A stretch of DNA of 13,280 nt, taken from Gemmatimonadota bacterium (GTDB taxonomy: Bacteria; Gemmatimonadota; Gemmatimonadetes; Gemmatimonadales; Gemmatimonadaceae). Positions 1 to 13,280 of this stretch are shown here, piece by piece (positions within the stretch are counted from its first letter, which is position 1; each line of letters begins with the position of its first letter). The stretch lies in assembly GCA_003222065.1 (NCBI GenBank), contig QHUV01000008.1:1-13280 (forward strand), in the 5' to 3' direction. Made by a program: the position numbers and the translations under genes. The notes under the pieces were generated by a model, which was not told the DNA's origin, ran no database searches, and was given only the letters and a program-made list of their open reading frames with translations.

Positions 1-65
1 CCTCGTGATTGGGCCACCGCTCGATCACGGTTCCGCGGATTCCGAGCATTGATGAGATTAGGTAC

Positions 66-1055
66 ATGAAAGACGCGCTTAGGTACGATGTCGTGATCAT
101 TGGCGCCGGGCCGGCGGGGATGTGTGCCGCGCTATACGCCGGTCGATCGATGCTCAAAGCAGTCGTGCTGGAGCGCGGGTTCCCCGGTGGCGAGCTACTC
201 AACACGGAGCTCGTCGAAGACTATCCCGGCTTCGAGAGTATCCTCGGACACGAGCTCGCGGAAAAATTCCAAGCGCACGCGGTCAAATTCGGCGCCGACT
301 TCCGGAACGGCATGCATGTGACCTCGGTCCGCAAACGCGATGACGGGCAGTTCGACACCCAGACGAGTGAGGGCGACGTCTATCGCTCGCCGGCAGTCAT
401 CATCACGGCGGGTGGTACTCCGGTGAAGCTGGGGATTCCCGGTGAGCTGGAATTCGCGGGGAAGGGCGTCTCCTATTGCGCGATTTGCGACGGCGCGTTC
501 TTCAAGAAGCAGACGATCGCCGTCGTGGGCGGAGGCGATGCCGCGACTGAGGAGGCGGATTTCCTGACACGGTACGCGGACAAAGTGTACCTGATCCATC
601 GGCGCGATTCACTGCGATCGTCCAAGATCCTCCAGAAGCGGCTGTTCGAGAATTCGAAAATCGAAGTCATCTGGGACACCGTTGTCGACCGCATCGAAGC
701 CGATGACCAGGGACTCGTCCACCGACTCAAGCTGCGCAACGTGCGAAGCTCGGAGGAGAAGGATCTCTCGGCGACGGGAATCTTCATCTTCGTCGGCTTT
801 CGACCGAACACCGGGATCATCACCGGCCATGCGGCTCACGACGAGATGGGCTATCTGCTCACGGATGCGAACATGGAGACCTCGATCCCGGGGCTGTTCG
901 CGGCCGGCGACGTGCGCTCGCAGCTGACGCGTCAGGTGACGACCGCGGTGGGCGACGCGACGACGGCGGCGATCGCCGTTGAGAAGTATCTCAAGGCGTT
1001 GGCGGACGGCGAGAAGGTTCCGGAGATCATTGGAACGGGAGGATATTCGGCGTGA
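66..1055 (+). CDS. trxB: Thioredoxin-disulfide reductase (TrxB)
   Basis: FAD/NADPH flavoenzyme that transfers electrons from NADPH to thioredoxin in the cytoplasm. Seen: N-terminal FAD-binding GAGPAG (residues 13-18); redox motif S-Y-C-A-I-C-D-G with Cys138 and Cys141, close to the E. coli positions 135/138; a second nucleotide-binding GGGDAATEE starting near residue 155; HRRDSLRSSK for NADPH specificity; and C-terminal GLFAAGDVR (from residue 276) for FAD. The 329-residue length is normal for the low-molecular-weight family. I start at the ATG at 66 because it puts the usual few residues before the FAD motif; the frame is open further upstream (TTG at 9) but that extension looks non-native. 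It ends in a 4-base overlap (GTGA) with the next gene, so the two are probably co-transcribed. The downstream AhpD-like selenoprotein candidate could draw on its electrons (inference). Confidence 0.96.
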   Translation: MKDALRYDVVIIGAGPAGMCAALYAGRSMLKAVVLERGFPGGELLNTELVEDYPGFESILGHELAEKFQAHAVKFGADFRNGMHVTSVRKRDDGQFDTQTSEGDVYRSPAVIITAGGTPVKLGIPGELEFAGKGVSYCAICDGAFFKKQTIAVVGGGDAATEEADFLTRYADKVYLIHRRDSLRSSKILQKRLFENSKIEVIWDTVVDRIEADDQGLVHRLKLRNVRSSEEKDLSATGIFIFVGFRPNTGIITGHAAHDEMGYLLTDANMETSIPGLFAAGDVRSQLTRQVTTAVGDATTAAIAVEKYLKALADGEKVPEIIGTGGYSA

Positions 1056-1693
1056 AGATCGACTGGCGCACGGTCGGTGCGTTTCAGGAGAACAGCTATC
1101 TCGTCGTCGATCCGTCGACGCAGCGTGCGGCGCTGGTTGATCCGGGTGCGGACGCGGAGCAACTCGTGGAGATGGTACGCGCATCTCGCGCGACGCTCGA
1201 GGCGATCTGGCTAACGCACGCGCACATCGATCACATCGGCGCCATTGCCGGTATCAAGCGCATTTGGGACGTGCCCGTGCACATGCATCCGGCCGATCGG
1301 CCGCTGTTCGATCGTGGCGCCATGCAAGCTGCCGTCTACGGCCTTCCGTTCGAGGAGCCACCGGCTCCTGAGCGTGAGCTCGCCGAGGGCGACATTCTGC
1401 AGCTGGGCGCACTGCGCTTCGGCGTGCTTCACATGCCTGGGCATGCTCCCGGGCACGTCGTCTTCGTTACCGACGGCCACATGATCGGGGGCGATCTTCT
1501 CTTCGCTGGCTCGATCGGCCGGACCGACTTGCCCTTCTCCGATCCTGATCGCATGTCGGAATCGCTCGAGCGGGTCATCATGCTGCCTGACGAGACAGTC
1601 GTCTATCCGGGACACGGTCCGACGACGGCGATCGGCCACGAGCGCTCCACCAATCCTTTTCTTACCGGCGTCGCGCGAGTCGTTAGGCGATGA
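1052..1693 (+). CDS. MBL-fold metallo-hydrolase, glyoxalase II-like
   Basis: 213-residue metallo-beta-lactamase-fold hydrolase of the hydroxyacylglutathione hydrolase/YcbL type, presumably cytoplasmic; substrate unknown, thioesters being the family's typical class. The metal-binding set is complete: T-H-A-H-I-D-H (His56, His58, Asp60, His61), G-H-A-P-G-H (His131), the bridging Asp148 in GGDLLFAGS, and His188 in YPGHGP. S-I-G-R-T-D-L after Asp148 is typical of the YcbL branch. The protein is shorter than true GloB enzymes and lacks their C-terminal glutathione-binding extension, so a bacillithiol, glutathione or other thiol-linked substrate cannot be assigned. The GTG start at 1052 overlaps the trxB stop and has a strong Shine-Dalgarno GGGAGG at 1037-1042, nine bases upstream. 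It overlaps the next gene by ATGA. Confidence 0.9.
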   Translation: MKIDWRTVGAFQENSYLVVDPSTQRAALVDPGADAEQLVEMVRASRATLEAIWLTHAHIDHIGAIAGIKRIWDVPVHMHPADRPLFDRGAMQAAVYGLPFEEPPAPERELAEGDILQLGALRFGVLHMPGHAPGHVVFVTDGHMIGGDLLFAGSIGRTDLPFSDPDRMSESLERVIMLPDETVVYPGHGPTTAIGHERSTNPFLTGVARVVRR

Positions 1694-2163
1694 CAGCCCG
1701 CGGCGTGCCGATGACGGAGACTCTGCTGCTCGCGGTCTGGATCGGCGCCGCGTTGCTGTTCGCGCTGGTCGTCGCGCCGGCGGCCTTCGCCGTACTTCCG
1801 TCACGCATCCTGGCCGGCGCGCTCGTCGGAAGGGTGCTACCCGTCATCTTTTACGCCGGTGTCGTCATCGGCTCGCTGATCGTGATCCTCGACCTGCTCA
1901 GTCGAACGGGCGGGTGGGCGCGCACCGCCGCGGGGGCCCTCGCCGCTCTCGCGTGCGCCGTCGCGCAACTCGTCGTCGGTACCCGCATCGATCGCCTGCG
2001 AGAGGCCATCGGTGGTCCGCTAGACGCGCTGGCCGGCGATGATCCGCGACGCCTCTCGTTCGGCAAGCTGCACGCGATCAGCGTCGGCTGGCTGGGAATC
2101 GCGATGCTTGCGGCCGTCGTTGCGCTCACGCTCGCCGTGCGCGCGTCAGTGTCTCGACAATAG
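1690..2163 (+). CDS. DUF4149-like small integral membrane protein
   Basis: 157 residues with about four hydrophobic helices (roughly 9-35, 48-70, 78-98 and 128-150), so an inner-membrane protein. The segment F-G-K-L-H-A-I-S-V-G-W (residues 124-134), leading into the last helix, resembles the DUF4149/TMEM205-like family, where an F..LH..S pattern is characteristic. No enzymatic residues are visible and the function is unknown. The ATG at 1690 overlaps the previous stop as ATGA, which supports translational coupling; Met8 at 1711 is a possible alternative start. The next gene begins 13 bases after the stop, so this sits inside a four-gene redox-flavoured transcription unit. Family assignment rests on pattern and topology only. 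Confidence 0.78.
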   Translation: MTARGVPMTETLLLAVWIGAALLFALVVAPAAFAVLPSRILAGALVGRVLPVIFYAGVVIGSLIVILDLLSRTGGWARTAAGALAALACAVAQLVVGTRIDRLREAIGGPLDALAGDDPRRLSFGKLHAISVGWLGIAMLAAVVALTLAVRASVSRQ

Positions 2164-2176
2164 GCGGTGGCAGACG

Positions 2177-2734
2177 ATGAGCGATAATTCCCCGGATCGT
2201 GAGCCGCGTGTCGAGCGAGTGAGCGCCGATGAGGCCATGCGGCGGGACGCGACACTCCGGCAGCCATTTCAACGATTCATCGACGAGCGCGGCAGAGTCC
2301 CCAATCTTTTCCGTGTCGCTGCTCATCGACCGGCGATTTCGCGGACGCTAGCCGATCACATGCGCGCCGTCATGGACGAAGGGGAAGTCTCCACGCTCCT
2401 GAAGGAGCTGCTCTCCGTTCGCGTCTCGCAAATCAACGGCTGCGAATATTGACTGGCCTCGCACACCGCCTTGGCAAGGCGGCTGGGTGCGTCGACGGAG
2501 CAGATCGAGGCAATGGCGCACGGAGACCTAACGATCTTCGACGAGTCGTGGCGCGCAGCGCTACGCGTCGCGGAAACAATGACCAGCAATCGCGGACAAA
2601 TTCCGACTGATGTCTATTCGACGCTCGCGTCGCACTGGGACGCGGGCCAGATCATCGAGATCGTCGCGGTAGTGGGCCTCTTCAATTACTTCAATCGGTT
2701 CGCGATCGGGCTTGATATTCCGCCGACGAAATGA
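2177..2734 (+). CDS. AhpD-like (carboxymuconolactone decarboxylase family) selenoprotein, in-frame UGA = Sec92
   Basis: Read through the TGA at 2450-2452, this is one 185-residue AhpD/CMD-family protein ending at TGA 2732-2734. The core reads N-G-C89-E-Y-U92-L-A-S-H96, with Glu77 twelve residues before Cys89. That reproduces the AhpD catalytic spacing Glu118/Cys130/Cys133/His137, with the TGA exactly at the resolving/peroxidatic cysteine. Sequence after the TGA remains family-like (LASHTALARRLG, then a C-terminal FNYFNRFAIGLDIPP). The family performs thiol-dependent peroxide reduction or related redox chemistry; a selenol would make the site more reactive. A SECIS-like hairpin follows at 2460-2491. 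The ATG at 2177 has GGTGG at 2166-2170. Known: AhpD-like CxxU selenoproteins have been described in other bacteria. Inferred: Sec insertion here. Alternatives are a recent nonsense mutation or a sequencing error TGC/TGT to TGA. The family call is near certain; Sec is likely. Confidence 0.8.
2450..2452 (+). other. In-frame TGA, proposed selenocysteine codon
   Basis: The triplet is in frame with the ATG at 2177 and with the downstream reading frame that ends at 2734. It occupies the second position of a CxxC redox motif (TGC at 2441-2443 is the first Cys). Other genes in the window (trxB, MBL hydrolase, aspA, rpmJ) end in TGA, so the codon is not globally reassigned. Confidence 0.75.
2460..2491 (+). 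promoter_or_regulatory. Candidate bacterial SECIS element
   Basis: A stem-loop inside the coding sequence just after the in-frame TGA. Upper stem: CCGCCTT (2466-2472) pairs perfectly with AAGGCGG (2476-2482) around the loop GGC (2473-2475). Lower stem: CGCAC (2460-2464) pairs with GTGCG (2487-2491), with A2465 and C2483-G2486 unpaired between the two stems. The apical loop begins 20 bases after the TGA and starts with GG. Bacterial SECIS elements recognised by SelB are described as having a short stem, a small loop with a G in its first two positions, and a loop within a few tens of bases of the UGA. All three criteria are met. GC-rich coding DNA can form hairpins by chance, so placement is the strongest argument. 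Confidence 0.72.
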
Positions 2735-2836
2735 CCTCTGACTATCATGTGCCGAATTGAGATCGCGACGTCGACCGGCGATCTTCGATAAGCCACATCG
2801 TGGCTCACATACTTCGCCTGTCCGAATCGACTACTC
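2735..2836. other. Spacer before aspA with two inverted repeats
   Basis: A 102-base gap. It holds GATCGC (2761-2766) facing GCGATC (2778-2783), and a 6-bp hairpin AGCCAC-ATC-GTGGCT (2791-2805). Neither is followed by a T-run, so neither is a classic intrinsic terminator. They could be an operator or leader structure for aspA. I found no convincing -35/-10 pair and no clear Shine-Dalgarno before the aspA ATG. Confidence 0.4.
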
Positions 2837-4264
2837 ATGCCAACCAACACTCGCACGGAAAAGGATCCCCTCGGCACCCTCGACGTCCCCGCTGAAGCTC
2901 TATACGGCGTGCAGACGCTCCGCGCCATTCAGAACTTTCCAATCAGCGGGCTCAAACCTCTCCCGCCATTCGTCATCGCGCAGGTGTGGATCAAGAAGGC
3001 AGCCGCGCTGACGCACAAGGCGACCGGCCGGCTCGATCCGCGCCTCGCCGACGCGATCGTTGCCGCGGCCAATGAGGTACTGGCCGGCAAGCATATGGAC
3101 CAATTCGTCGTCGATCCGTACCAGGCCGGCGCCGGGACATCGCACAATATGAACGTGAACGAGGTGCTCGCGAATCGCGCGAATGAGCTCCTCGGGGGAA
3201 AGCGGGGTGAATACAAGCCCGTACACCCTAACGATCACGTCAACATGGCGCAGAGCACCAACGACACGATTCCCACCAACATCCGGCTCGCGTGTCTCGC
3301 TCAACTGAGCGGGCTCGTAACCGCGTTCGAATCGCTGCGCTCCGCCTTGGCCGCCAAGGGACGCGAGTTCGACGACATCGTAAAGGCTGGCCGCACGCAT
3401 CTGCAGGACGCGATGCCGATCCGCCTTGGCCAGGAATTCGACGCGTACGCCGGCTCGATCGAGCGCGGCCTAAAGCGCGTTACCGAGGCCGCTGACTACC
3501 TGCGCGATCTCGGGATTGGCGGTAGCGCCGTCGGCACCGGCGTAACCGTCGAGCCGTCGTACCCCAACCTCATGATCAAGCATCTGAAAAAGATCACGGA
3601 GCTCGATCTGCGCGCGGGGAAGGATCGCGTGCAATTGATGCAGAGCATGGGCGACGTCGCGGGTTTCAGCTCAGCGCTCAAGGTGCTCGCGATCGATCTC
3701 AGCAAGATCGCGAGCGATCTGCGTCTGATGGTCATGGGGCCGCGCACGGGCATCGACGAGATCAAGTTGCCCGCGGTTCAGCCTGGATCGTCGATCATGC
3801 CGGGGAAAGTGAATCCGTCGATACCAGAGATGGTGAACCAGGTGTGTCTTCAGGTTATCGGTCTTGACACAACTGTCGCTGTTGCTTCAGAGCACGGGCA
3901 GCTCGAGCTAAACGTCATGATGCCCGTGATCGCGTTCAACGTCTTGTTGTCCACGCGCATTCTGACGAACGCCACAACCGTGTTTACCGAGCGATGCGTC
4001 AAGGGCATCGAGGCGAATCGCGAGATGTGCGAGTACTGGGTCGAGCGATCGGCGGCGTTGGCGACCGCTCTCGCGCCGCAGATCGGTTATGCGCGGGCCG
4101 CTGAACTGAGTAAGCAATCAGTGAAGGAGAACATTCTGATCCGCGATCTGGTAAAGCGCGAACACGTGTTGCCGGATGATCAGATCGACGACGTTCTCGA
4201 TCTGCGCAAGATGACGGAGATCGGCGTCCCTGGCGGCGCGCACGGCGCCGTCGCCGCAGGCTGA
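2837..4264 (+). CDS. aspA: Aspartate ammonia-lyase
   Basis: Reversible deamination of L-aspartate to fumarate and ammonia; cytoplasmic homotetramer of the fumarase/aspartase superfamily. The 475 residues match the family length (E. coli AspA 478). The N-terminal text Y-G-V-Q-T-L-R-A-I-Q-N-F is aspartase-like rather than FumC-like (YGAQTQRS). Active-site residues can be placed one by one: Thr101 in GAGTS, Ser140-Thr141-Asn142 in QSTND, Thr187-His188 in GRTHLQD, and the mobile loop GSSIMPGKVNP with Ser318 (catalytic base), Ser319, Lys324 and Asn326. These numbers coincide with those known for the Bacillus sp. YM55-1 aspartase. A fumarase-side activity cannot be fully excluded from sequence alone. 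The start is the ATG at 2837, though no good Shine-Dalgarno precedes it. An Rrf2 regulator starts 46 bases after the stop. Confidence 0.92.
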   Translation: MPTNTRTEKDPLGTLDVPAEALYGVQTLRAIQNFPISGLKPLPPFVIAQVWIKKAAALTHKATGRLDPRLADAIVAAANEVLAGKHMDQFVVDPYQAGAGTSHNMNVNEVLANRANELLGGKRGEYKPVHPNDHVNMAQSTNDTIPTNIRLACLAQLSGLVTAFESLRSALAAKGREFDDIVKAGRTHLQDAMPIRLGQEFDAYAGSIERGLKRVTEAADYLRDLGIGGSAVGTGVTVEPSYPNLMIKHLKKITELDLRAGKDRVQLMQSMGDVAGFSSALKVLAIDLSKIASDLRLMVMGPRTGIDEIKLPAVQPGSSIMPGKVNPSIPEMVNQVCLQVIGLDTTVAVASEHGQLELNVMMPVIAFNVLLSTRILTNATTVFTERCVKGIEANREMCEYWVERSAALATALAPQIGYARAAELSKQSVKENILIRDLVKREHVLPDDQIDDVLDLRKMTEIGVPGGAHGAVAAG

Positions 4265-4310
4265 GGCCGCTACACTTGTAACTTCCCGATGCGGGGCGTA
4301 ACGTCCAATC

Positions 4311-4820
4311 GTGCGCATCACCACTCTGGCCGAGTACGGCGTCATCTGCGCGCTTCATCTCGCGAGACGCGCGTCCGAGGGACCCATCACCGGCCGCGAC
4401 ATCGCCGCGGGGGAGCGTCTGCCCGTGGATTACGTCGAACAGATCTTGCTTCGGTTGCGGCGCGCCGGCATCGTGCGCAGCACGCGCGGCGCGCATGGTG
4501 GCTACGAGCTCGCTCGTGGCGCCGATGAGATCTCGATTCGCGCCGTGATCGCTGCATCCGAAACAACGACGTTCGACCTGCATTGCGTCTCGCATCCGGT
4601 TGAGGAAGAGCGCTGCTCCGCGTCGCACACCTGCAGTATTCGTCCGGTCTGGCAGTTGTTGCAGCAAAGGATCGACGACGTGCTCGAGGGAATCCGCCTC
4701 GCCGACTTGCTACATGAGGAAAGTCAGGTGCGCACACTCGTCGGACTACAAGAGCGCGCGGCGATCGATCGTGTCGTTGTGCGTGGCGGCCGACACATGT
4801 TGCCTGTGCTCGGCGGCTGA
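4311..4820 (+). CDS. Rrf2-family transcriptional regulator with a three-cysteine cluster motif
   Basis: 169-residue winged-helix regulator of the Rrf2 family (IscR/NsrR/RirA/CymR relatives). The N-terminus M-R-I-T-T-L-A-E-Y-G opens the typical DNA-binding domain, followed by the recognition-helix region and the wing R-S-T-R-G-A-H-G-G-Y (residues 56-65). Cys92, Cys102 and Cys108 lie where iron-sulfur-binding members carry their three ligands; the spacing is 9 and 5 residues, wider at the first interval than IscR's 5 and 5. An Fe-S (redox, NO or iron) sensing role is therefore probable but not proven. The GTG start at 4311 places the conserved MR at the terminus; no strong Shine-Dalgarno is visible. 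No suf or isc genes are in the window, so its targets are not given by context. The neighbours are aspA upstream and an unknown protein 27 bases downstream. Confidence 0.9.
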   Translation: MRITTLAEYGVICALHLARRASEGPITGRDIAAGERLPVDYVEQILLRLRRAGIVRSTRGAHGGYELARGADEISIRAVIAASETTTFDLHCVSHPVEEERCSASHTCSIRPVWQLLQQRIDDVLEGIRLADLLHEESQVRTLVGLQERAAIDRVVVRGGRHMLPVLGG

Positions 4821-4847
4821 GTCGCGCGCGCAACATTCTCCGAGCTA

Positions 4848-5402
4848 ATGACGTTGTTCGCGCGCTGGCGCACTGAGCGCGATTTTCAGCGCAAAGCGGA
4901 GAAGTTCGTCGAGCGCCTGCTAGCGGAGCCCGATGACGAGGACGTGCGCTGGCTCGCCCAGACTGCGACGCATGGCGACACGGACCACGCGCGCTGGGAG
5001 TTGCGTTACGCTCGTCGGTCGGTCGGGCTGATCACCGCCGAACGCGATGCGCTCGACGATCGGACGGGTTCCCTTGTCGCGCGCGCGCTCGATGCGGCAA
5101 CGACACGCGATCCACAAGTCGCCACGGACATGCACGAGATTGCCGAGCGTCAATTCAACGCTCGATTGAGCGCATATCGCGACGCGCTTTTGGCGCGCGC
5201 TGGCGCAGCGACCGCGGCGCGCCTTGGCCAAACCCTGTTCGCGTTCGCCGGTGGATCGTTTCGGCAGGTCGACGAGAACATTGTCCGCGGCGGCGACGTG
5301 CTCTCGAGGTATCTGGCTGAGGCGAACGGTGCTCTCCGTGACATCTTTGGCAAGGCGTCGCTGCCGGAGAACGTGCCGCCCTCGGCGCTGCGTGGAGCGT
5401 AA
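4848..5402 (+). CDS. Uncharacterised 184-residue protein, mostly helical
   Basis: I do not recognise this family. The protein starts MTLFARWRTERDFQRKAEKF, is rich in Arg, Ala, Glu and Asp, and reads as mainly alpha-helical, with no signal peptide or membrane segment and no cysteine at all. A segment H-A-R-W-E-L-R-Y-A-R-R-S (about residues 46-57) and a later glycine-containing stretch F-A-F-A-G-G-S-F-R (about 130-138) are its most distinctive parts. It follows the Rrf2 gene by 27 bases on the same strand, so it may be co-transcribed with it. Coding is supported by a long open frame with GC-rich third positions. Its last codons (Leu-Arg-Gly-Ala-stop) are written in the heptamer repeat that continues into the spacer, so the C-terminus may have been altered by repeat insertion. 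Confidence 0.72.
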   Translation: MTLFARWRTERDFQRKAEKFVERLLAEPDDEDVRWLAQTATHGDTDHARWELRYARRSVGLITAERDALDDRTGSLVARALDAATTRDPQVATDMHEIAERQFNARLSAYRDALLARAGAATAARLGQTLFAFAGGSFRQVDENIVRGGDVLSRYLAEANGALRDIFGKASLPENVPPSALRGA

Positions 5403-5502
5403 AGCGCTGGGCGTTGAGCGTTGAGCCTCGAACGGGCTGGGCACGGCGCTCTGCGCTCCACACACAGCGCTCCACGCTCCACGCACAGCGCTCCACGCGC
5501 AG
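5390..5502. repeat. Heptamer-based repeats (GTGGAGC/GTTGAGC and reverse complement)
   Basis: Seen: GTGGAGC at 5392-5398, two tandem GCGTTGA units at 5411-5424, and the reverse complement GCTCCAC at 5455, 5469, 5476 and 5490, whose starts are separated by 14, 7 and 14 bases, all multiples of seven. The last block includes a 15-base exact direct repeat, CACAGCGCTCCACGC, at 5463-5477 and 5484-5498. The two orientations face each other between the end of the 184-residue CDS and the 3' end of the tRNA-Leu. This resembles heptanucleotide repeats of some bacterial genomes. There is no spacer structure of a CRISPR type. Confidence 0.7.
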
Positions 5503-5586
5503 TGCCGAAGGGGGGACTCGAACCCCCACGGGCATACGCCCACTGCGCCCTGAACGCAGCGCGTCTACCAATTCCACCACTTCGGC
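5503..5586 (-). tRNA. tRNA-Leu (anticodon CAG)
   Basis: The reverse complement folds as a class II tRNA. The acceptor GCCGAAG pairs with CTTCGGC. The D-arm has the leucine-type GGAATTGGTAGACGC, the anticodon stem CTGCG/CGCAG carries loop TTCAGGG with anticodon CAG (complement of 5550-5552), the long variable arm is built on GGGC/GCCC, and the T-arm is GGGGG-TTCGAGT-CCCCC. The discriminator base is A, as in leucine tRNAs. The 3' CCA is not encoded (the next bases are CTG), so it must be added by nucleotidyltransferase. It reads CUG leucine codons. It is the only feature on the - strand. Confidence 0.97.
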
Positions 5587-5596
5587 GAAGTCACGA

Positions 5597-5625
5597 AGTG
5601 TACACCGCTTGCGTGGCACGGTCAA
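5597..5625 (-). promoter_or_regulatory. Sigma70-type promoter for tRNA-Leu
   Basis: On the - strand, TTGACC (complement of 5620-5625, five of six consensus bases) and TACACT (complement of 5597-5602, four of six) are separated by exactly 17 bases. The tRNA begins 10 bases after the -10 box, so the leader would be only a few bases long. Position, spacing and match are all good. Confidence 0.75.
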
Positions 5626-5719
5626 CGCAGCGCGTGTTGCTCGTGCTGTTCGCGCGACCTAAGTTGCGGCGACTCCTCGCGCCCGCCGCCGCGGCGCCGG
5701 CCCGCCCAGTTCACCCTCG
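5626..5719. other. Spacer between tRNA-Leu promoter and smpB
   Basis: Divergent spacer that must hold the + strand promoter for smpB, unless smpB is read through from upstream. It is very GC-rich near 5670-5705. I see no clear -35/-10 pair for smpB and no hairpin with a T-run. Confidence 0.4.
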
Positions 5720-6193
5720 ATGACGAAGGACTCTGATCGCCCGACCGACAAGATCTCGATCGCGCGCAACAAGCGCGCGCGATACGATTACGAGATTCTC
5801 GACAGCTGGGAGGCGGGTATCGTCCTCACGGGCACGGAGGTCAAGTCACTCCGCGACGGCAAGGCGAACATCGGCGACGCGTATGGGATCGTGCATGGTA
5901 GTGAGATTTTCCTCATCAACATGCACATCGCGCCGTACGAACGGGGCGGATATGCGAACCACGAGCCGGAGCGCACGCGAAAACTGTTGCTCCACAGGAA
6001 GGAGATCCGTCGTCTCATCGGTGCCGTCGAGCGTGAGGGACTGACGCTCATACCGCTCGAGTTGTATTTCCGGAAGGGAGTGGCGAAGGTGTCGCTAGCA
6101 TTAGGCAAAGGGAAAAAGCTCCACGACAAGCGAGAGACGACCCGCCGACGCGACGCCGAGCGCGAGATGGCTCGCGCCATTCGCACCCGCTGA
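5720..6193 (+). CDS. smpB: SsrA-binding protein SmpB
   Basis: Partner of tmRNA (SsrA) in trans-translation: binds its tRNA-like domain and rescues ribosomes stalled on broken messages. The 157-residue protein has the family hallmarks: N-terminal I-A-R-N-K-R-A-R-Y-D-Y, then GTEVKSLRDGKANI (about residues 38-51), the beta-barrel segment NMHIAPYERG, and a basic C-terminal tail beginning GKGKKLHDKRE that enters the decoding centre. The ATG at 5720 gives a normal-length N-terminal extension. The amidase gene starts four bases after the stop, so the two are likely co-transcribed. No ssrA gene was found in this window. Confidence 0.97.
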   Translation: MTKDSDRPTDKISIARNKRARYDYEILDSWEAGIVLTGTEVKSLRDGKANIGDAYGIVHGSEIFLINMHIAPYERGGYANHEPERTRKLLLHRKEIRRLIGAVEREGLTLIPLELYFRKGVAKVSLALGKGKKLHDKRETTRRRDAEREMARAIRTR

Positions 6194-6197
6194 GTCG

Positions 6198-7355
6198 ATG
6201 CTCGCTCCGCTGCTTCTCGCCTTGCAGGTCGCTGCCTCGGCTCCCGGCGCATCGAGCATCGCCATTCGCGCGGCGACATCAGTCCAGCGCGTGGCCCTCG
6301 TCGGCGAGGCGACGGCGCCCATGCTTCGGCCACAATCGCTCGCGCCGCTGTTGCCGGTTGTCGTGACGCAGGAAGCGCCCGGCCGCTACCACGTCCTCGT
6401 TTCAGGCGTCGCTTTTGGACTCGAGGTCGGGGTTGCCACGACGACCATCGGCGGACAAGTCACACCACTCGCTGCCGCGCCTGTCGAGCGCAACGGCCAG
6501 CTTCTCGTTCCGCTGCAATTGGTGTCGGAAGTCTTCCCGGCATACGTGAACAATCTGCGCTGGAATGCGGCGACTCACGAGCTGGTGATCTTCACTCGCG
6601 TCGGCAGTGCGAAGCACCAGGCAAGGCTCGTCGTCGTCGATGCCGGGCACGGTGGACCCGATAATGGGATGACCGGCCCCCTCGGTGCACCGATTAGCAT
6701 TTACGAAAAGGACGTCACACTCGCCGTCGCGAAGCGTCTGGGCCTCGAGCTCAAATCGCGCGGCTTGAGAGTACTCTTCACGCGGACGACCGACACGTTG
6801 ATTACGCTCTCCGATCGGGGCCGAATCGCCAATCAGGCCGGTGGTGATTTGTTCATTTCAGTGCACGTGAATGCGGCGAGCCTCGACTGGAAGGATCCGG
6901 CCGCTGGTCGAGGCTTCGAGACGTACTTTCTCTCCGAAGCCAGGACTGAGGACGCGCGCCGTGTCGAAGAGATGGAGAATCAATCGGTGCGCTTCGAGAC
7001 GGGGACCGCGGTTTCCAACAGCGATCCGCTGAACTATATCCTCAGCGACATGAAGCAGAACGAGCACCTGCGCGAATCCTCCGACTTGGCGGCGCTCGTG
7101 CAGGAGCATCTCGCGTCGATGCATCCGGGCCCGAATCGCGGCGTGAAACAAGCGGGCTTTCGCGTGCTCGTCACCGCCTTCATGCCGGCGGTGCTCGTGG
7201 AGATCGGCTTCGGCACCAATGCGGCCGAGGCAAAGTACCTTTCTGATCGGCGTCATCAGGCGGAGATTGCCAGCGCCATCGCCGATGCCGCGGCGGAATA
7301 TCTTCGCCGGTACGAGCGCAGGGTGGGAGCGGGAGAAGGACGTGACGAGCGCTGA
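6198..7355 (+). CDS. N-acetylmuramoyl-L-alanine amidase (Amidase_3) with N-terminal stalk-like domain
   Basis: Zinc amidase that cleaves the bond between N-acetylmuramic acid and the peptide stem of peptidoglycan; expected in the periplasm. Residues 1-15 (MLAPLLLALQVAASA) look like a short signal peptide, although the n-region lacks a Lys or Arg. Residues about 30-134 resemble a copper-amine-oxidase-N/stalk-type beta domain (a GQLLVPLQLVSEVF stretch then LRWN). The catalytic domain follows: VVDAGHGGPDNG with His151, Glu170 in YEKDVTL, His223 in FISVHVNA, and catalytic Glu335 in LVEIGFGTN. The length of 385 is typical for a two-domain amidase. An in-frame stop lies directly upstream, so the ATG at 6198 is the earliest ATG start. 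The 3' end overlaps pyrD by 14 bases, an odd pairing of cell-wall and pyrimidine genes. Confidence 0.93.
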   Translation: MLAPLLLALQVAASAPGASSIAIRAATSVQRVALVGEATAPMLRPQSLAPLLPVVVTQEAPGRYHVLVSGVAFGLEVGVATTTIGGQVTPLAAAPVERNGQLLVPLQLVSEVFPAYVNNLRWNAATHELVIFTRVGSAKHQARLVVVDAGHGGPDNGMTGPLGAPISIYEKDVTLAVAKRLGLELKSRGLRVLFTRTTDTLITLSDRGRIANQAGGDLFISVHVNAASLDWKDPAAGRGFETYFLSEARTEDARRVEEMENQSVRFETGTAVSNSDPLNYILSDMKQNEHLRESSDLAALVQEHLASMHPGPNRGVKQAGFRVLVTAFMPAVLVEIGFGTNAAEAKYLSDRRHQAEIASAIADAAAEYLRRYERRVGAGEGRDER

Positions 7356-8292
7356 TCGCCTCGCCATCACGGTCGCGGGTCTCGCGTTCCAAAATCCAAT
7401 TGTCCTCGCCTCCGGTACGGCCGGTTATGGAGTCGAATTAGCGAACGTCGTGGACCTCGAAGGGGTGGGGGGCCTAACGACGAAAGCCGTGTCCGTCGAG
7501 CCGCGTGCCGGCAATGACTCGCCCCGCGTCGCCGAGCTCGATGAGGGAATGATAAACTCGGTCGGCCTGGCAAATCCCGGTGTCGAGCGGGTCAAGTCGG
7601 CGTACGTCCCGTGGCTCGCGTCGCATTTGACGCGGACGCGCAAGCTCGTCAACGTCGTCGGCAATGCCGCCGAGGACTACGCGCAGGTCGTTGCAGAGCT
7701 CGACGCATGCGCGCGATCTGCTGGTGACGCCGCCATCGACGCGTACGAGCTGAACGTGAGCTGCCCGAACGTCAAGGCCGGCGGCATGGAATTCAGTGCC
7801 GATCCGGAGTCGCTGCGGACAGTGATTCGTCTTGCCCGCGCGCAGACGCGCCGTCCGCTGTTCGTGAAGTTGTCGCCGATGCTACCCGATATCGTGCGCA
7901 CCGCCAAGGTCGCCGTCGACGCCGGTGCCGATGGCCTAACGCTCGTGAATACGATGCCTGGCCTTGCGATCGACGTCGAGCGGCGGCGTCCAATTCTCGG
8001 TTTCGGCTCGGGAGGGGTGAGTGGACCCGGCCTCCTGCCGGTGGGTGTTCTCGCCACCTGGCGCGTGAGCCGCGCGGTGAAAGTTCCGATCATCGGCATC
8101 GGCGGCGTCTCGTCAGGCAGCGACGCTCTCCAGTACATGATGGCTGGCGCGTCACTGGTCGGCGTCGGGACGGCCGCGATGCGCGATCCGCGCGCGCCAC
8201 AACGCATTGTGAAAGAGCTCGACGCCTGGTGTCGCCGACACGACGTGTATTCGCTCGCCGGCATTGTCGGGACGCTGGAGTGGAGCATATGA
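7342..8292 (+). CDS. pyrD: Dihydroorotate dehydrogenase, class 1B catalytic subunit type
   Basis: Oxidises dihydroorotate to orotate in UMP synthesis, FMN-dependent and cytosolic. Seen: N-terminal FQNPIVLASGTAGYG, catalytic loop N-V-S-C-P-N-V-K with Cys141 as base (class 1; class 2 enzymes have Ser there), KLSPMLPD, LVNTMPGLAID, and FMN-phosphate segments GGVSGPGLLPV and GIGGVSSGSDALQYMMAG. The text resembles class 1B (PyrDB), which normally pairs with the electron-transfer subunit PyrK; no pyrK is in this window. The GTG at 7342 gives 316 residues and has GGAG at 7332-7335. The frame is open back to 7219 but that would overlap the amidase much further and adds non-family sequence. It shares ATGA with pyrF. 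Confidence 0.93.
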   Translation: MTSADRLAITVAGLAFQNPIVLASGTAGYGVELANVVDLEGVGGLTTKAVSVEPRAGNDSPRVAELDEGMINSVGLANPGVERVKSAYVPWLASHLTRTRKLVNVVGNAAEDYAQVVAELDACARSAGDAAIDAYELNVSCPNVKAGGMEFSADPESLRTVIRLARAQTRRPLFVKLSPMLPDIVRTAKVAVDAGADGLTLVNTMPGLAIDVERRRPILGFGSGGVSGPGLLPVGVLATWRVSRAVKVPIIGIGGVSSGSDALQYMMAGASLVGVGTAAMRDPRAPQRIVKELDAWCRRHDVYSLAGIVGTLEWSI

Positions 8293-8981
8293 CCACGACG
8301 CCGATCGTCGCGCTCGACGTCTCGACGTCAAAAGCGGCGCTCGATTTGGTTGACGATCTTGGCGAGGCGTGTCGCTTTTTTAAGGTCGGCGCTGAGCTTT
8401 TCACGGCGTCCGGACCCTCGGTGATTCGTGAAGTTCAGGCGCGCGGCGCGGAAGTCTTTCTCGACCTCAAATACCACGACATCCCAAACACGGTTGCCGG
8501 TGGTGTGCGTGCCGCCGCAGCGTTGGGCGTCCGACTCGTCACCGTTCACGCCGTCGGTGGGCCCGCGATGCTGCGTGCCGCAGTCGATGGGGCCGGTGAT
8601 CAAGGCCGGTGTGGCGTGCTGGCCGTCACCATTTTGACATCCTTGGGCGCGGCCGAGGTCGCGAGCTCGTGGCGGCGTGATCCTGGACTCTGTATCGAGG
8701 ATGAGGTTATCCGGCTCGCCGAGATCGCCAAAGAGGCAGGTGTATTCGGCGTCGTGTGCAGCGGCAAGGACGCTGGAAGCGTGAAACAGCGTTTCGGATC
8801 GTCGCTGGCTGTCCTCGTACCTGGCGTGAGAAGCGAGGGCGGCGCGATGCACGATCAAGCGCGGGTATCGACGCCCGCCGAAGCCGCCGCCGCCGGCGCC
8901 GATTACATAGTCGTTGGCCGGGCGATCACGGGCGCGCCCGATAGGCGGGCAGCGCTGCGACAAATTCGCCAGCAGCTTTAG
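8289..8981 (+). CDS. pyrF: Orotidine 5'-phosphate decarboxylase
   Basis: Decarboxylates OMP to UMP, the last step of de novo pyrimidine synthesis. The catalytic D-L-K-Y-H-D is complete (Asp59, Lys61, Asp64), with Lys32 in FFKVG. The phosphate-binding regions PGVRSEGG and DYIVVGRAIT are present, as is DQAR before the latter. At 230 residues it matches the bacterial short form. The ATG at 8289 overlaps the pyrD stop (ATGA), with GGAG at 8282-8285, which supports coupled expression with pyrD. A 107-base gap separates it from the ribosomal operon. Confidence 0.96.
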   Translation: MTTTPIVALDVSTSKAALDLVDDLGEACRFFKVGAELFTASGPSVIREVQARGAEVFLDLKYHDIPNTVAGGVRAAAALGVRLVTVHAVGGPAMLRAAVDGAGDQGRCGVLAVTILTSLGAAEVASSWRRDPGLCIEDEVIRLAEIAKEAGVFGVVCSGKDAGSVKQRFGSSLAVLVPGVRSEGGAMHDQARVSTPAEAAAAGADYIVVGRAITGAPDRRAALRQIRQQL

Positions 8982-9005
8982 GAGCCGCCCTCGAGGCCGG
9001 CTCAC

Positions 9006-9034
9006 TTGCATGAAGTCAATGTCCCGGCTACTCT
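9006..9034 (+). promoter_or_regulatory. Weak candidate promoter for the alpha operon
   Basis: TTGCAT (9006-9011) and TACTCT (9029-9034) are 17 bases apart in the 107-base gap before rpmJ. Each matches the sigma70 consensus at only about half the positions. A promoter is expected here because the operon starts after an unrelated pyrimidine pair, but this exact placement is tentative. A second TATTAC-like box at 9060 has no suitable -35. Confidence 0.3.
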
Positions 9035-9088
9035 TAGGGTCTGGCCGGAAACGGGCCTGTATTACATCTGAGACATGGTGGAGCACCT

Positions 9089-9205
9089 GTGAAAGTTCGT
9101 ACAAGCGTGAAGCCGATTTGCGAGCACTGCAAAGTGGTCAAGCGCAGCGGCGTCACTCGCATCATTTGCAAGCGCAATCCTAAGCACAAGCAGCGTCAAG
9201 GCTGA
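9089..9205 (+). CDS. rpmJ: 50S ribosomal protein L36 (bL36)
   Basis: 38-residue zinc-ribbon protein of the large subunit: [17 protein letters not shown] at the start and PKHKQRQG at the end, both canonical. Zinc ligands are Cys11, Cys14, Cys27 and His33, so this is the zinc-containing (C+) form. The GTG start at 9089 is supported by GGTGGAG at 9077-9083. It is the first gene of the ribosomal operon, two bases before rpsM. In many bacteria infA or secY/map precedes rpmJ; here pyrF does. Confidence 0.97.
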
Positions 9206-9207
9206 TC

Positions 9208-9585
9208 ATGGCACGCATATCCGGCGTCGATCTCCCACGTGAGAAAAAGGTCGAGATCGGCCTCTCGTACATTTATGGCATCGGCCGGCGCAACGCCGTC
9301 GACATCCTCCGCAAGGCGGGAATCGACACATCGCTTCGGATTCGCGATCTCACCGACGCCGACGTCAACAAGCTGCGTCAGGTGATCGAGCGCGACTACA
9401 AAGTCGAAGGCGCGTTGCGCACCGAAGTCGCCATGAACATCAAGCGACTGATGGACATTGGCTCGTATCGCGGCATTCGCCATCGCCGTGGCTTGCCCGT
9501 GCGGGGCCAGCGCACGCACACGAACGCCCGAACGAAGAAGGGGCCGCGGCGCGCGATCGCTGGTAAGAAGAAGGTGACGAAGTAG
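9208..9585 (+). CDS. rpsM: 30S ribosomal protein S13 (uS13)
   Basis: 125-residue head protein of the small subunit that contacts the large subunit (bridge B1) and P-site tRNA. Start [10 protein letters not shown], the helix-hairpin-helix region [11 protein letters not shown], and the closing [20 protein letters not shown] are all canonical, followed by a lysine-rich tail. The ATG at 9208 has AAGG at 9198-9201, overlapping the end of rpmJ. A 122-base gap carrying a repeat element separates it from rpsK. Confidence 0.98.
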
Positions 9586-9598
9586 CGCAAGCTGCCTC

Positions 9599-9699
9599 GT
9601 CATCCCGAGCTGCGGAGCAGCGAGGGATCTGCTTTTATTACTGCGGAGCGAGAAAACAGCACCCGCCAGCGGGTACCCGCTCGCTCTGCTCGGAATGAC
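9599..9699. repeat. Interspersed repeat copy 1, MITE-like, in the rpsM/rpsK gap
   Basis: A 101-base element bounded by imperfect inverted ends: GTCATCCCGAGC at 9599-9610 and GCTCGGAATGAC at 9688-9699, complementary at 11 of 12 positions. Its first 37 bases match copy 2 (10733-10769) at 36 positions. That block folds as ATCCC-GA-GCTGC-GGA-GCAGC-GA-GGGAT (9602-9628): two 5-bp stems separated by a tandem G.A internal loop. The 3' half holds a perfect 12-base palindrome GCGGGTACCCGC (9669-9680). No coding capacity is evident. The element fills almost the whole gap and would be transcribed. Confidence 0.8.
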
Positions 9700-9707
9700 A
9701 AACACAC

Positions 9708-10085
9708 ATGGCAACTGGCAAGAAAACGAAGCGAGTGGTCGAGGCAGAAGGGATCGCGCATATCGCCGCGACCTTCAACAACACGACCGTGACGATCACC
9801 GATAGCCACGGCAATGCCGTGGCGTGGGGCTCGTCAGGCAAAGCGGGCTTCAAGGGATCGAAGAAGAGTACCCCCTTCGCCGCAACGGTCGCCGCCGAGC
9901 AGTGCGCGCGCGAGGCGATGGGCCTCGGCGTGAAACGCGTCCACGTGCGCGTGCAGGGCCCTGGTAGCGGCCGTGAGTCGGCAATCCAAGCACTTGCCAC
10001 CGCTGGTCTCCAGGTCAAGTCCATCAAAGATGTAACGCCGATCCCGCATAACGGCTGCCGTCCCCCCAAGCGTCGGAGAGTTTGA
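9708..10085 (+). CDS. rpsK: 30S ribosomal protein S11 (uS11)
   Basis: 125-residue platform protein of the 30S subunit near the 3' end of 16S rRNA. Canonical segments: [41 protein letters not shown] and the C-terminal [15 protein letters not shown]. The ATG at 9708 lies eight bases after the end of the repeat element, and the nearest purine-rich ribosome site (GGA, 9692-9694) is inside that repeat, which may influence its translation. rpsD follows after three bases. Confidence 0.98.
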
Positions 10086-10088
10086 GTC

Positions 10089-10724
10089 ATGGGCCGCTAT
10101 GTTGGGCCGAGCTGCAAGCAGTGTCGGCGTGAGGGTACGAAGCTTTTCCTGAAGGGTACGAAGTGCTTCACCGAGAAGTGTCCCGTCGAACGGCGACCGT
10201 ACGCGCCGGGTCAGCACGGACAGAACACCGCTCGTCGGCGAAAGTCCTCTGAGTACTCGAAGCAGCTTCGCGAGAAGCAGAAGATCAAGCGCATTTACGG
10301 CGTGAGCGAGGCGCAGTTCCACAACACGTTCCAGCGAGTCACGACGCTACCTGGAATCACGGGACACAATCTCCTCGCCGCGCTCGAGAGTCGCCTCGAC
10401 AACATGGTGTATCGGCTTGGGTTCGCCGCGAGCCGCAAGGCGGCGCGTCAGCTGATTCGGCATCGTCACGTCGAGATCAGTCAGCGCACCGTCGACATCC
10501 CCAGCTACCAGGTCCAACCGGGCGAAGAGATTCGCGTCAACCTGAAATCGCGTGAGATGGTCGCGGTGCAGGCGTCGATGGACCAGGCCTCGCGCGGTGC
10601 TCCGCTGTCGTGGCTTGCCGTTGACCGCGAGAGCTTCAGCGGTCGCATGCTCGAGCGCCCGACACGCCCGAACATTCCGATCGCGGCGCAGGAGCAGCTG
10701 GTTGTGGAGTTGTATTCGAAATGA
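10089..10724 (+). CDS. rpsD: 30S ribosomal protein S4 (uS4), zinc-binding form
   Basis: 211-residue primary 16S rRNA-binding protein, and in many bacteria the translational repressor of the alpha operon. The N-terminal Cys9, Cys12, Cys26 and Cys31 form an intact zinc-finger pattern (C+ form). The S4 RNA-binding domain follows, with L-E-S-R-L-D-N-M-V-Y-R-L-G-F-A-S-R-K (from about residue 100) and the H-R-H-V-E-I region. The ATG at 10089 is three bases after rpsK, with GGAG at 10075-10078 inside the end of rpsK. A 187-base structured gap separates it from rpoA. Confidence 0.98.
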   Translation: MGRYVGPSCKQCRREGTKLFLKGTKCFTEKCPVERRPYAPGQHGQNTARRRKSSEYSKQLREKQKIKRIYGVSEAQFHNTFQRVTTLPGITGHNLLAALESRLDNMVYRLGFAASRKAARQLIRHRHVEISQRTVDIPSYQVQPGEEIRVNLKSREMVAVQASMDQASRGAPLSWLAVDRESFSGRMLERPTRPNIPIAAQEQLVVELYSK

Positions 10725-10785
10725 CGCGAAGCGTCATCCCGAGCTGCGCAGCAGCGAGGGATCTGCTTTCGCGACACGAGAGTCC

Positions 10786-10810
10786 GCGCACGCGGGGATG
10801 CCGCGTGCGC
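10786..10810 (+). other. Perfect 10-bp hairpin in the rpoA leader
   Basis: GCGCACGCGG (10786-10795) pairs without mismatch with CCGCGTGCGC (10801-10810) around GGATG. It would be very stable in RNA. No T-run follows, so it is not an intrinsic terminator. It could slow polymerase, protect mRNA ends or belong to the repeat element. Confidence 0.7.
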
Positions 10811-10822
10811 ATTCGGTCGGAG

Positions 10823-10857
10823 CCCTAACCTCCATTCGAGTCTGCCGCGCGTTAGGG
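10823..10857 (+). other. Inverted repeat CCCTAAC/GTTAGGG in the rpoA leader
   Basis: Exact 7-bp arms at 10823-10829 and 10851-10857 enclose 21 bases. They lie between the two stronger hairpins. This may be a stem in the leader RNA or a protein site; there is no further evidence. Confidence 0.5.
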
Positions 10858-10870
10858 GCGGGGCAGAGCG

Positions 10871-10891
10871 ATGCCGGACGATGTCCGGTAT
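10871..10891 (+). other. Hairpin just upstream of the rpoA ribosome-binding site
   Basis: CCGGAC (10874-10879) and GTCCGG (10883-10888) pair around GAT, extended by A-T, T-A and G-U pairs to a 9-bp stem. It ends five bases before the Shine-Dalgarno AAAGGAG (10896-10902), so it could affect ribosome access to rpoA. Confidence 0.6.
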
Positions 10892-10911
10892 GACCAAAGG
10901 AGCATTTACTG

Positions 10912-11982
10912 ATGGCAACAACTATCGATCTCAAGGGGCTCGTTCAACCCAAGCTGGTCGAAGCGAGCAAGCGAGATGACAACCCGAACGTCGCCGAATT
11001 CCGGCTGCAACCGCTCGAGCGCGGCTTCGGCCACACGCTCGGCAACGCGATGCGACGCATGCTGCTCTCATCGCTGCGCGGCGCCGCCGTCTGGGGCTTT
11101 CGCATCGATGGCGTCGTCCACGAGCACCAGACCATTCCGGGTGTCGTCGAGGACGTTCACCAGATCATCGGCAATCTCAAGAATCTGACGCTCACGCTCG
11201 CGGACGATGTCGAAGAGACCGTCCTGCGTATTTCCAAGGGCGAGGCAGGTCCGGTAACGGCGGCGGACATCACGTCTTCGGCTGGCGCCCGCATCGTCGA
11301 CACGGGACATCATCTCTTCACGCTGCAAGACGACCGCGACATCAACGTCGATCTGTACGTGAACAAGGGCCGGGGTTACGTCGAAGCCGATCAGCATCCG
11401 ATCGATCGCGGTTTGCCGGTGGATCTCGTTCGCATCGATTCCATCTACAATCCGGTGCGCCGCGCCAATTTCACCGTTGCCGAGACACGCGTCGGCCAGC
11501 GAACGGACTATGACCGTCTGACCCTGACGGTCGAGACCAACGGGACGATTTCGCCAGAAGAAGCGGTGAGCTATGCCGCCGCGCTGGCGCAGACTCACTT
11601 CCAGTACTTCGTCGAGTTCGGGTCGCACTCGTCGGCTCCGCTGGCGCTCTCGAATGATTCGTTGGGAGGAGACGCCGCGCGTCTCGCCCAACTGCTCCGG
11701 ACGCCGATCGATGATCTGGAGCTGTCCGTGCGTTCGGTCAACTCGCTCAAGAATTCGAACATCCGGACGCTAGGCGACCTCGTTCGCCAAACGGAAAGCC
11801 AGATTCTGCAAGTCAAGAATTTCGGCAAGAAGTCGCTGCAGGAGATCGCGGATCTGCTCGAGCGCGAAGGCCTGAACTTCGGCATGCGGTACGAGGAAAA
11901 CGGCGAGGGCGTTCGTATCCTCGACTGGGGCACGCCGCCGAGCCGTGCCGCCGCGGCTGCGCCTGACGACATGGAGGAGTAA
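10912..11982 (+). CDS. rpoA: DNA-directed RNA polymerase alpha subunit
   Basis: 356 residues, somewhat longer than the 329 of E. coli. The N-terminal dimerisation domain shows F-G-H-T-L-G-N-A-M-R-R-M-L-L-S-S (near residues 38-53) and V-H-E-H-Q-T-I-P-G-V-V-E-D. The C-terminal DNA/activator-binding domain shows D-L-E-L-S-V-R-S-V-N-S-L-K near residues 268-280 and V-K-N-F-G-K-K-S-L-Q-E-I near 302-313. The ATG at 10912 has a strong Shine-Dalgarno AAAGGAG (10896-10902) nine bases upstream. It is the only gene of the operon with both a long structured leader and a consensus ribosome site, suggesting separate control of alpha subunit output. rplQ begins three bases after its stop. Confidence 0.98.
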   Translation: MATTIDLKGLVQPKLVEASKRDDNPNVAEFRLQPLERGFGHTLGNAMRRMLLSSLRGAAVWGFRIDGVVHEHQTIPGVVEDVHQIIGNLKNLTLTLADDVEETVLRISKGEAGPVTAADITSSAGARIVDTGHHLFTLQDDRDINVDLYVNKGRGYVEADQHPIDRGLPVDLVRIDSIYNPVRRANFTVAETRVGQRTDYDRLTLTVETNGTISPEEAVSYAAALAQTHFQYFVEFGSHSSAPLALSNDSLGGDAARLAQLLRTPIDDLELSVRSVNSLKNSNIRTLGDLVRQTESQILQVKNFGKKSLQEIADLLEREGLNFGMRYEENGEGVRILDWGTPPSRAAAAAPDDMEE

Positions 11983-11985
11983 CGG

Positions 11986-12342
11986 ATGCGGCATCGCAAA
12001 GCGGGCCGGCAGCTTCGCCGTACGAGCGAGCAAAAGCTCGCCCTCATGCGCAATCTCGCGACATCGCTGATCGAGCATGGAGCGATCGAGACGACCGAGG
12101 CGAAGGCGAAGGAGCTACGGCCCTTTGTTGAGAAGTTGATCACGAAGGCCAAGACCGGTACGCTGCACGCGCGCCGGCTTGCCGTTCGGCACATTCATAA
12201 GCGCGCGGCGGCGGACAAGCTCTTCCAGGAGATTGGTCCCCAGTACGCGACGCGGAATGGCGGTTACACGCGCATTCTGAAGACTGGTCACCGCAAGGGT
12301 GACGGCGCCGACATGGCGCGTATCGAATTGATCGAGGGCTGA
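11986..12342 (+). CDS. rplQ: 50S ribosomal protein L17 (bL17)
   Basis: 118-residue large-subunit protein. Canonical M-R-H-R-K-A-G-R-Q-L-R-R-T-S at the start, M-R-N-L-A-T-S-L-I-E-H in the first helix, T-E-A-K-A-K-E-L-R-P-F-V-E-K-L-I-T-K-A-K, and R-N-G-G-Y-T-R-I-L-K-T-G-H-R-K-G-D-G-A toward the end. The ATG at 11986 has GGAGGAG at 11973-11979, inside the rpoA 3' end. It is the usual last gene of the alpha operon, but here rpmB follows after three bases. Confidence 0.98.
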   Translation: MRHRKAGRQLRRTSEQKLALMRNLATSLIEHGAIETTEAKAKELRPFVEKLITKAKTGTLHARRLAVRHIHKRAAADKLFQEIGPQYATRNGGYTRILKTGHRKGDGADMARIELIEG

Positions 12343-12345
12343 GCA

Positions 12346-12567
12346 ATGGCGATCGATAGAAGCCGGTGCTACTCATGCAAGAAGGGCGTTGCGTTCGGCA
12401 ATAACCGATCGCACGCCAATAACGCCACACGTCGCACCTGGAAGCCGAACCTCCAGGTCGCCCGCGTGCTGGACGCGAGTGGCAAGATCGCCAAAGTAAA
12501 GGTGTGCACGCGCTGCCTTGCGGCGGGGAAGATCAAGCGTGCGCCGCGAGGCGTCGCCGCGGCGTGA
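12346..12567 (+). CDS. rpmB: 50S ribosomal protein L28 (bL28), zinc-binding form
   Basis: 73-residue large-subunit protein. The diagnostic G-N-N-R-S-H-A-N-N-A-T-R-R-T-W-K-P-N-L (residues 18-36) is complete. Cys8, Cys11, Cys54 and Cys57 form two CxxC pairs, the zinc-binding (C+) arrangement. The ATG at 12346 has GAGGG at 12334-12338 and sits three bases after rplQ, so it is co-transcribed with the alpha operon. rpmB is more often found with rpmG or alone; its linkage to rplQ is unusual. The operon terminator follows. Confidence 0.96.
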   Translation: MAIDRSRCYSCKKGVAFGNNRSHANNATRRTWKPNLQVARVLDASGKIAKVKVCTRCLAAGKIKRAPRGVAAA

Positions 12568-12596
12568 CCGCTTGCTCGACCGGCCGCGCGAAGTCG

Positions 12597-12626: not shown

Positions 12627-13280
<654 letters not shown>

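Follow-up and report, generated by a model that had tools for sequence, protein, structure and literature searches.

We analysed a 13,280-nt window of DNA (positions 1 to 13,280 of the forward strand of contig QHUV01000008.1, assembly GCA_003222065.1) from a soil Gemmatimonadota bacterium of the family Gemmatimonadaceae, and found that a 185-codon gene on its forward strand (2177-2734) almost certainly encodes an AhpD-like selenoprotein of the carboxymuconolactone decarboxylase (CMD) superfamily. As judged from sequence comparison, the UGA at 2450-2452 would be decoded as selenocysteine (Sec) at codon 92, and Sec92 would form a redox site together with Cys89. The class as such is already known; what is new is mainly the lineage, together with a clade that we did not find described.

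An AhpD-type redox site with TGA at the second cysteine

The frame from 2177 to 2734 translates into 185 residues, terminates at a TGA, and contains one internal TGA, codon 92. The original prediction, made from the DNA letters, had described a single frame interrupted only at this codon, and the Pfam CMD profile PF02627 bore this out by matching the full read-through protein across the TGA (67.2 bits over residues 52-133; gathering cut-off 23). The part before the TGA scored 26.7 bits by itself, and the part from an internal start at 2471 gave no Pfam match. It had also been anticipated that automatic annotation would split the gene into a truncated protein of 91 residues and a fragment from an internal start. 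Mechanical calling of open reading frames did return two pieces, the downstream one running for 87 amino acids from a TTG at 2471, but the upstream one opened at 2039 and comprised 137 amino acids, so that 91 is obtained only from 2177. Among the 16 other genes of the window, none had an inner stop and 11 terminated at TGA, indicating that this genome is not simply recoding TGA, and genome-wide recoding was rejected on these grounds.

The best sequence match in the PDB was the AhpD-like protein PA0269 of Pseudomonas aeruginosa (2ijc, 2o4d, 7xw1; 57.2 bits), whose Glu36, Cys48, Tyr50, Cys51 and His55 align with Glu77, Cys89, Tyr91, Sec92 and His96 of the window protein. Since residue 92 aligns with Cys51, the TGA lies on the second redox cysteine of CxxC, where the original prediction had placed it; PA0269 differs in having Cys where the window protein has Sec, and in its shorter chain (145-165 residues). 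On the forward strand, the codons of Glu77 (2405-2407; the proton-relay site), Cys89 (2441-2443; the presumed resolving partner of Sec92) and His96 (2462-2464) give, together with codon 92, a spacing of 12, 3 and 4 residues, which is that of Glu118, Cys130, Cys133 and His137 in Mycobacterium tuberculosis AhpD, again as predicted. The site thus reads E-x11-C-x-Y-U-x3-H, a form of the E-x11-C-x-x-C/U-x3-H relay, and the window protein has the all-helical AhpD-like fold as well. The available portions of PMC3141380 describe five proton-relay residues, and give the PA0269 set as equivalent to Glu118, Cys130, His132, Cys133 and His137 of M. tuberculosis AhpD.

Further structures named as peroxidase-related or AhpD proteins (2prr, 6k40, 2oyo, 2pfx) share 24-26% identity with the window protein, and their titles make no mention of a selenoprotein. 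Against TIGR01926 (peroxid_rel) the window protein scored 78.3 bits, under the curated NCBIfam cut-off of 81.8, and three of 10 hand-chosen relatives reach that cut-off; we regard the protein as a borderline relative of TIGR01926 that is not counted as a member, in a clade that straddles the cut-off. NF053654 (YciW-related (seleno)protein) and NF041238 (CFYUT (seleno)protein), both AhpD-like and both with selenoproteins in the family name, gave 67.5 and 40 bits against cut-offs of 310 and 175, and the (seleno)protein families NF041047 and NF041537 gave 24.4 and 22 bits, below their cut-offs of 110 and 510.

Conservation of the TGA among relatives

Relatives were sought in 395 genomes of the phylum Gemmatimonadota, with matches in 230, and every sequence above 126 bits among the matches listed was retained, giving 38 relatives with the window included (the next scored 71.8 bits). 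Codon 92 was TGA in 32 of these and TGC in six (genomes G330, G314, G033, G213, G203 and G329), while Glu77, Cys89, Tyr91 and His96 were invariant in all 38. The 31 other TGA relatives share 41-74% identity with the window protein, the value of 74% being that of the same-genus genome G361. The gene therefore has the hallmarks of a selenoprotein gene, namely an in-frame UGA conserved at a redox cysteine position and the existence of Cys homologues. A partial sequence in G235 (contig C111; 55.3 bits), which has the TGA and the same hairpin as described below, was excluded from the counts of 38 and 32. In G328, a TGA-form gene (locus L078) carries an extra in-frame TAG downstream, and is either a decaying copy or a sequencing error.

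Nonsynonymous divergence (dN) was lower than synonymous divergence (dS) on either side of the TGA in all seven hand-chosen comparisons: after the TGA, dN was 0.20-0.55 and dS 0.76-2.8, the latter being rough at such high values, and before it dN was 0.12-0.51 and dS 1.23-2.2, saturated in two comparisons. A tree of the 38 relatives with site 92 masked, which was midpoint-rooted and has several long branches, required three changes between Sec and Cys, of which well-supported branches enforce two or more, and the Cys sequences were confined to one family (f1). On the simplest reading, for which we infer the direction of change, the Sec form is ancestral and about three changes to Cys occurred, mostly upon loss of Sec decoding. 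With Sec and Cys forms of the same enzyme occurring naturally in one gene neighbourhood, the family makes the cost and benefit of Sec testable.

A broader search returned 23 loci, nine of them from Gemmatimonadota (four TGA, five Cys). The 14 loci from outside the phylum had Cys at the site in 13 cases and no motif by pattern in one (L125); another locus of this set, L113, has one stop elsewhere within the matched stretch. Among the 120 protein-database homologues listed of 335, CxxCxxxH was present in 112. Six of the 120 (P0006, P0034, P0106, P0116, P0119 and P0121) had Thr at the first cysteine and retained the second (TxYC), which suggests that part of the family may do without the partner cysteine. 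Two more read CEYG (P0089) and CEYW (P0095) at the site. NCBI translation table 25 reads TGA as Gly and table 4 reads it as Trp, so these two, seen as proteins without their DNA, may be Sec genes mistranslated under codes 25 and 4. Neither U nor X occurred in any of the 120 listed sequences, and pieces cut at a UGA would fall near or below the length limit of the search. The names shown for these homologues were of types such as 'carboxymuconolactone decarboxylase family protein', 'uncharacterized peroxidase-related enzyme' or 'alkylhydroperoxidase like protein AhpD family', and many were unnamed.

A covarying hairpin follows the UGA

Directly after the UGA lies a hairpin resembling a bacterial selenocysteine insertion sequence (SECIS), at 2466-2482 on the forward strand, with a stem of 7 bp, a 3-nt loop (GGC) and 20 nt from the UGA to the loop. 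In the ungapped alignment A1 it occupies columns 17-33, where column 1 is the U of the UGA, in all 32 TGA genes, and the loop is GGC throughout except for GTC in G196. All seven pairs form in 31 of the 32 and six in G077, whereas each of the six Cys genes has two of seven. Overall, 99.6% of the cells in A1 were paired, and although the stem sequence varies among groups, pairing is retained: changes on both sides of a pair were seen in 40 cells (shuffled mean 11.0; 0/500 shuffles as high), the covariation score was 0.505 as compared with 0.203 in shuffles (0/500 as high), double changes affected five of seven pairs (shuffled mean 2.9; 4/500 as high), and there were nine further pair types (shuffled mean 7.4; 20/500). 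With the pairing partner displaced by one, two or three columns, pairing fell to 33-61%, and RNAalifold, unaided, proposed the identical seven pairs. As a check on whether the encoded protein by itself imposes the stem, codons were recoded with the window's codon usage applied to all relatives; random synonymous recoding produced the full stem in a mean of 0.17% of cases over the TGA genes (maximum 1.05%). The window's own stem is built with rare codons: in 16 window genes AGG makes up 3% of the codons for Arg, and TTG 12% of those for Leu. According to the parts of PMC1088965 available, bacterial SECIS elements share a small apical loop containing guanosine, and a stem-loop immediately after the UGA with guanosine in a small apical loop is what we found here. 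The covarying hairpin thus offers a clean SECIS model for an AhpD-like gene family.

Selenocysteine machinery

The window's own genome (G000) is a draft of 3.73 Mb in 736 contigs, 81.66% complete. It contains a tRNA-Sec gene (C8:1432-1524; 77.1 bits), which ARAGORN likewise called as tRNA-SeC with anticodon tca. Adjoining it directly upstream is selD (L005; C8, 381-1424), whose codon 22 is an in-frame TGA (444-446) in the context CAG-U-AAK, that is, UxxK; the read-through product scored 390.9 bits against TIGR00476 (cut-off 125). UxxK is listed as a SelD pattern in the portion of PMC13188914 that could be consulted, and this selD is itself a predicted selenoprotein gene. A C-terminal fragment of selB (L004; C716, 1492-2340) encodes two SelB winged-helix domains and runs off the contig end. 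Both same-genus genomes, G242 and G361, carry selA. Proximity to selB might have explained why selA did not turn up in the draft, but this found no support: our SelB fragment was unmatched around selA of G361 and G242.

The phylum appears to use selenocysteine widely, and ordinary gene calling can miss its selenoproteins: tRNA-Sec was above cut-off in 290 of the 395 genomes, and selA was found at E <= 1e-30 in 283 (280 above cut-off). The machinery counts were taken from tables by eye, and the stricter filters of the tRNA-Sec search can lose weak matches. Among the 32 TGA genomes, 30 had tRNA-Sec (exceptions G184 and G349), 25 had selA (exceptions G000, G379, G346, G271, G114, G349 and G205), and 31 had one or both. 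Of the six Cys genomes, only G213 carried either, and it carried both (Fisher p = 7e-5 for machinery versus TGA or Cys form, uncorrected for kinship). The gene in G213 (L055) is thus a Cys version in a genome that retains tRNA-Sec and selA.

Gene neighbourhood

The AhpD-like gene is preceded on the same strand by a tight row of genes. The first is the thioredoxin reductase gene trxB (66-1055; NCBIfam TIGR01292, 356.3 bits, cut-off 343.45), a candidate electron donor; it overlaps by 4 bases with a gene for a metallo-beta-lactamase-fold (MBL) hydrolase (1052-1693; Pfam PF00753), which in turn overlaps by 4 bases with a gene for a DUF4149 protein (1690-2163; Pfam PF13664), and 13 bases separate the latter from the AhpD start. 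The two overlaps and the short gap suggest that trxB, the MBL gene, the DUF4149 gene and the AhpD-like gene are on one transcript. Between 2100 and 2900, a scan for sigma-70-like promoters and for terminator patterns gave no hit. Downstream, also on the forward strand, is an aspartate ammonia-lyase/fumarase family gene, aspA (2837-4264; NCBIfam NF008909, 625.1 bits, cut-off 510).

Across the 38 loci, window included, 28 had a trxB match upstream in the same orientation (only 37-38% identical in G196 and G203), 30 had the MBL gene upstream, and in 31 aspA was the downstream neighbour. Four genomes (G184, G166, G315 and G209) shared none of the 10 window genes tried, and several of the 38 loci are cut by contig ends.

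Weighing the alternatives

The original prediction had called the gene a likely selenoprotein, had put the chance of a random nonsense change falling on this codon at about one in 185, and had pointed to aligned homologues, a SECIS after the UGA and the sel genes as ways of checking this. The comparisons upheld it in nearly every respect: the same codon is TGA in 32 of the 38 relatives and either TGA or TGC in every one, and the hairpin after the UGA is conserved and covaries. The sel genes were recovered in part, with tRNA-Sec and selD present, selB represented by its C-terminal fragment, and selA not found in the 82% draft though present in two of two same-genus genomes. Taken together, all of the comparative evidence strongly suggests that the TGA is a selenocysteine codon and not a nonsense mutation.

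Several observations weigh against this interpretation or parts of it. We did not find selA in the 81.66%-complete, 736-contig draft, nor did a search of it with the G361 selA protein, run without a positive control, give a match; with the model of the whole SelB protein, the selB fragment reached only 35 bits (cut-off 242). Beyond this genome, selA was not found in seven of the 32 TGA genomes, and G349 (86% complete) had neither selA nor tRNA-Sec. Folding of single sequences after the UGA was no better than that of shuffles in three of three stretches, and only the alignment revealed the hairpin, so the case for a SECIS rests on comparison; the shuffles behind the figures for A1 leave kinship in, and the stem that was tested was derived from the same sequences. 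As to function, the neighbourhood is weak evidence and the link to TrxB a hypothesis. Among eight hand-chosen genomes, the row trxB-MBL-DUF4149-aspA was intact without an AhpD match in G242, G144 and G071, as was trxB-MBL-aspA in G010 (4/8 in total), and the pairing of TrxB with AhpD is weakened because genomes keep the row without the AhpD gene; the remaining four had an altered row and no AhpD match within 1500 bases. The AhpD-like gene is a removable cassette within a stable neighbourhood. At the AhpD-less rows (L126, L127, L131 and L129), trxB, the MBL gene, the DUF4149 gene where present, and aspA adjoin for another reason too.

The draft state of the assembly and the failure to find selA in it would suit a nonsense mutation or base-call error that converted a Cys codon to TGA, in which case the gene would be a recent pseudogene or a product of misassembly; yet the same TGA recurs in 31 other relatives as distant as 41% identity and as close as 74%, the hairpin covaries and is absent from the Cys genes, and dN stays below dS after the TGA, all of which makes such an accident scarcely credible. 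Nor is it at all probable that a functional 91-residue protein ends at the TGA, with the downstream part separate or unmade. The TTG at 2471 does open an 87-residue frame, and Glu77 and Cys89 do precede the TGA, but the CMD domain spans it, residues after it, His96 among them, are unchanged across all 38 relatives, the gene is uninterrupted in six relatives, and a split would break a single compact helical fold.

Under the selenoprotein interpretation, tRNA-Sec and SelB would decode the UGA at 2450-2452, steered by the hairpin. The all-helical product would hold Sec92 at the second redox cysteine of AhpD with Cys89 as its partner, and Glu77, Tyr91 and His96 would serve as the proton relay. In AhpD the second cysteine is the attacking residue. 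On the strength of what is known of AhpD, we infer a redox function, its mechanism and substrate, and the label 'catalytic': Sec92 would most likely attack a peroxide or disulfide, Cys89 would resolve it, and a thioredoxin-type system, for which TrxB from the same row is a possible candidate, would reduce the resulting Cys89-Sec92 selenenylsulfide. It is possible, if somewhat doubtful, that the selenoprotein is not chiefly a peroxidase, and that its Sec-Cys pair instead serves as an adaptor between thiols and disulfides or takes part in another reduction, a role compatible with the fold, which the debrominase Bmp8 shares. Against this alternative, the nearest structures bear the names peroxidase-related or AhpD, PA0269 was active as a peroxidase when assayed with H2O2, according to the portion of PMC3141380 consulted, and the five-residue relay is complete; none of these points decides the substrate. 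Papers joining any two of Bmp8, debrominase and AhpD were not found in the open-access literature. Unlikely, in our estimation, is the more specific scheme in which Sec-AhpD and the same-row TrxB form a dedicated two-protein chain, TrxB directly reducing the Sec92-Cys89 selenenylsulfide without thioredoxin or lipoamide adaptors; the chain would then be a small module, dependent on selenium, with which Gemmatimonadota counter peroxides or organohalides and which they gain and lose as one cassette.

Relation to known AhpD-like selenoproteins

That AhpD-like Sec proteins are a known class, as the original prediction had stated, is documented in Table 1 of PMC13188914, where the part consulted lists 'AhpD-like protein, TIGR01926, CxxU' along with several other AhpD-like selenoproteins. 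In the sections available of the other sources, PMC9312934 gives the same AhpD-like protein as COG2128 YciW, PMC2398784 has 'AhpD-like 1' (COG2128, CxxU) with 299 such selenoproteins counted in marine samples, PMC1794560 lists AhpD-like (COG2128), and PMC1088965 describes an AhpD-like selenoprotein with a bacterial SECIS after the UGA in a Sargasso member. As far as these portions go, the known proteins (PMC13188914, PMC2398784, PMC1088965) have in common with ours the CMD/AhpD type and Sec as the second residue of CxxU; in contrast to the known TIGR01926 family, the window protein belongs to a separate Gemmatimonadota clade. We found no description of a Gemmatimonadota AhpD-like selenoprotein in the parts of the open-access literature that were accessible, and the term 'gemmatimonad' does not occur in the main text of any of PMC13188914, PMC9312934 and PMC5029168. 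In the passages available, PMC3281104 states that SelO homologues occur in Gemmatimonadetes, and PMC5649159 that SelA and SelB co-occur in most sponge-symbiont bins of various phyla.

Further TGA-containing CMD frames in the phylum

A second AhpD-like group has TGA at CxxU, in the form CFYU, CRYU or CHYU followed by HH (L085-L088, L090-L094, L096 and L099-L101), and two of its members tested against TIGR01926 scored 137 and 149 bits, well above the cut-off. L089 (G385) was rejected as a selenoprotein candidate, its lone TGA lying near the match start and away from the redox site. Three other CMD-type frames, L097 (G344), L102 (G387) and L095 (G090), have one TGA each in C-x-F-U contexts and, from their sequences, look like additional selenoprotein families; in L097 and L102 the TGA is followed by a 7-bp hairpin.
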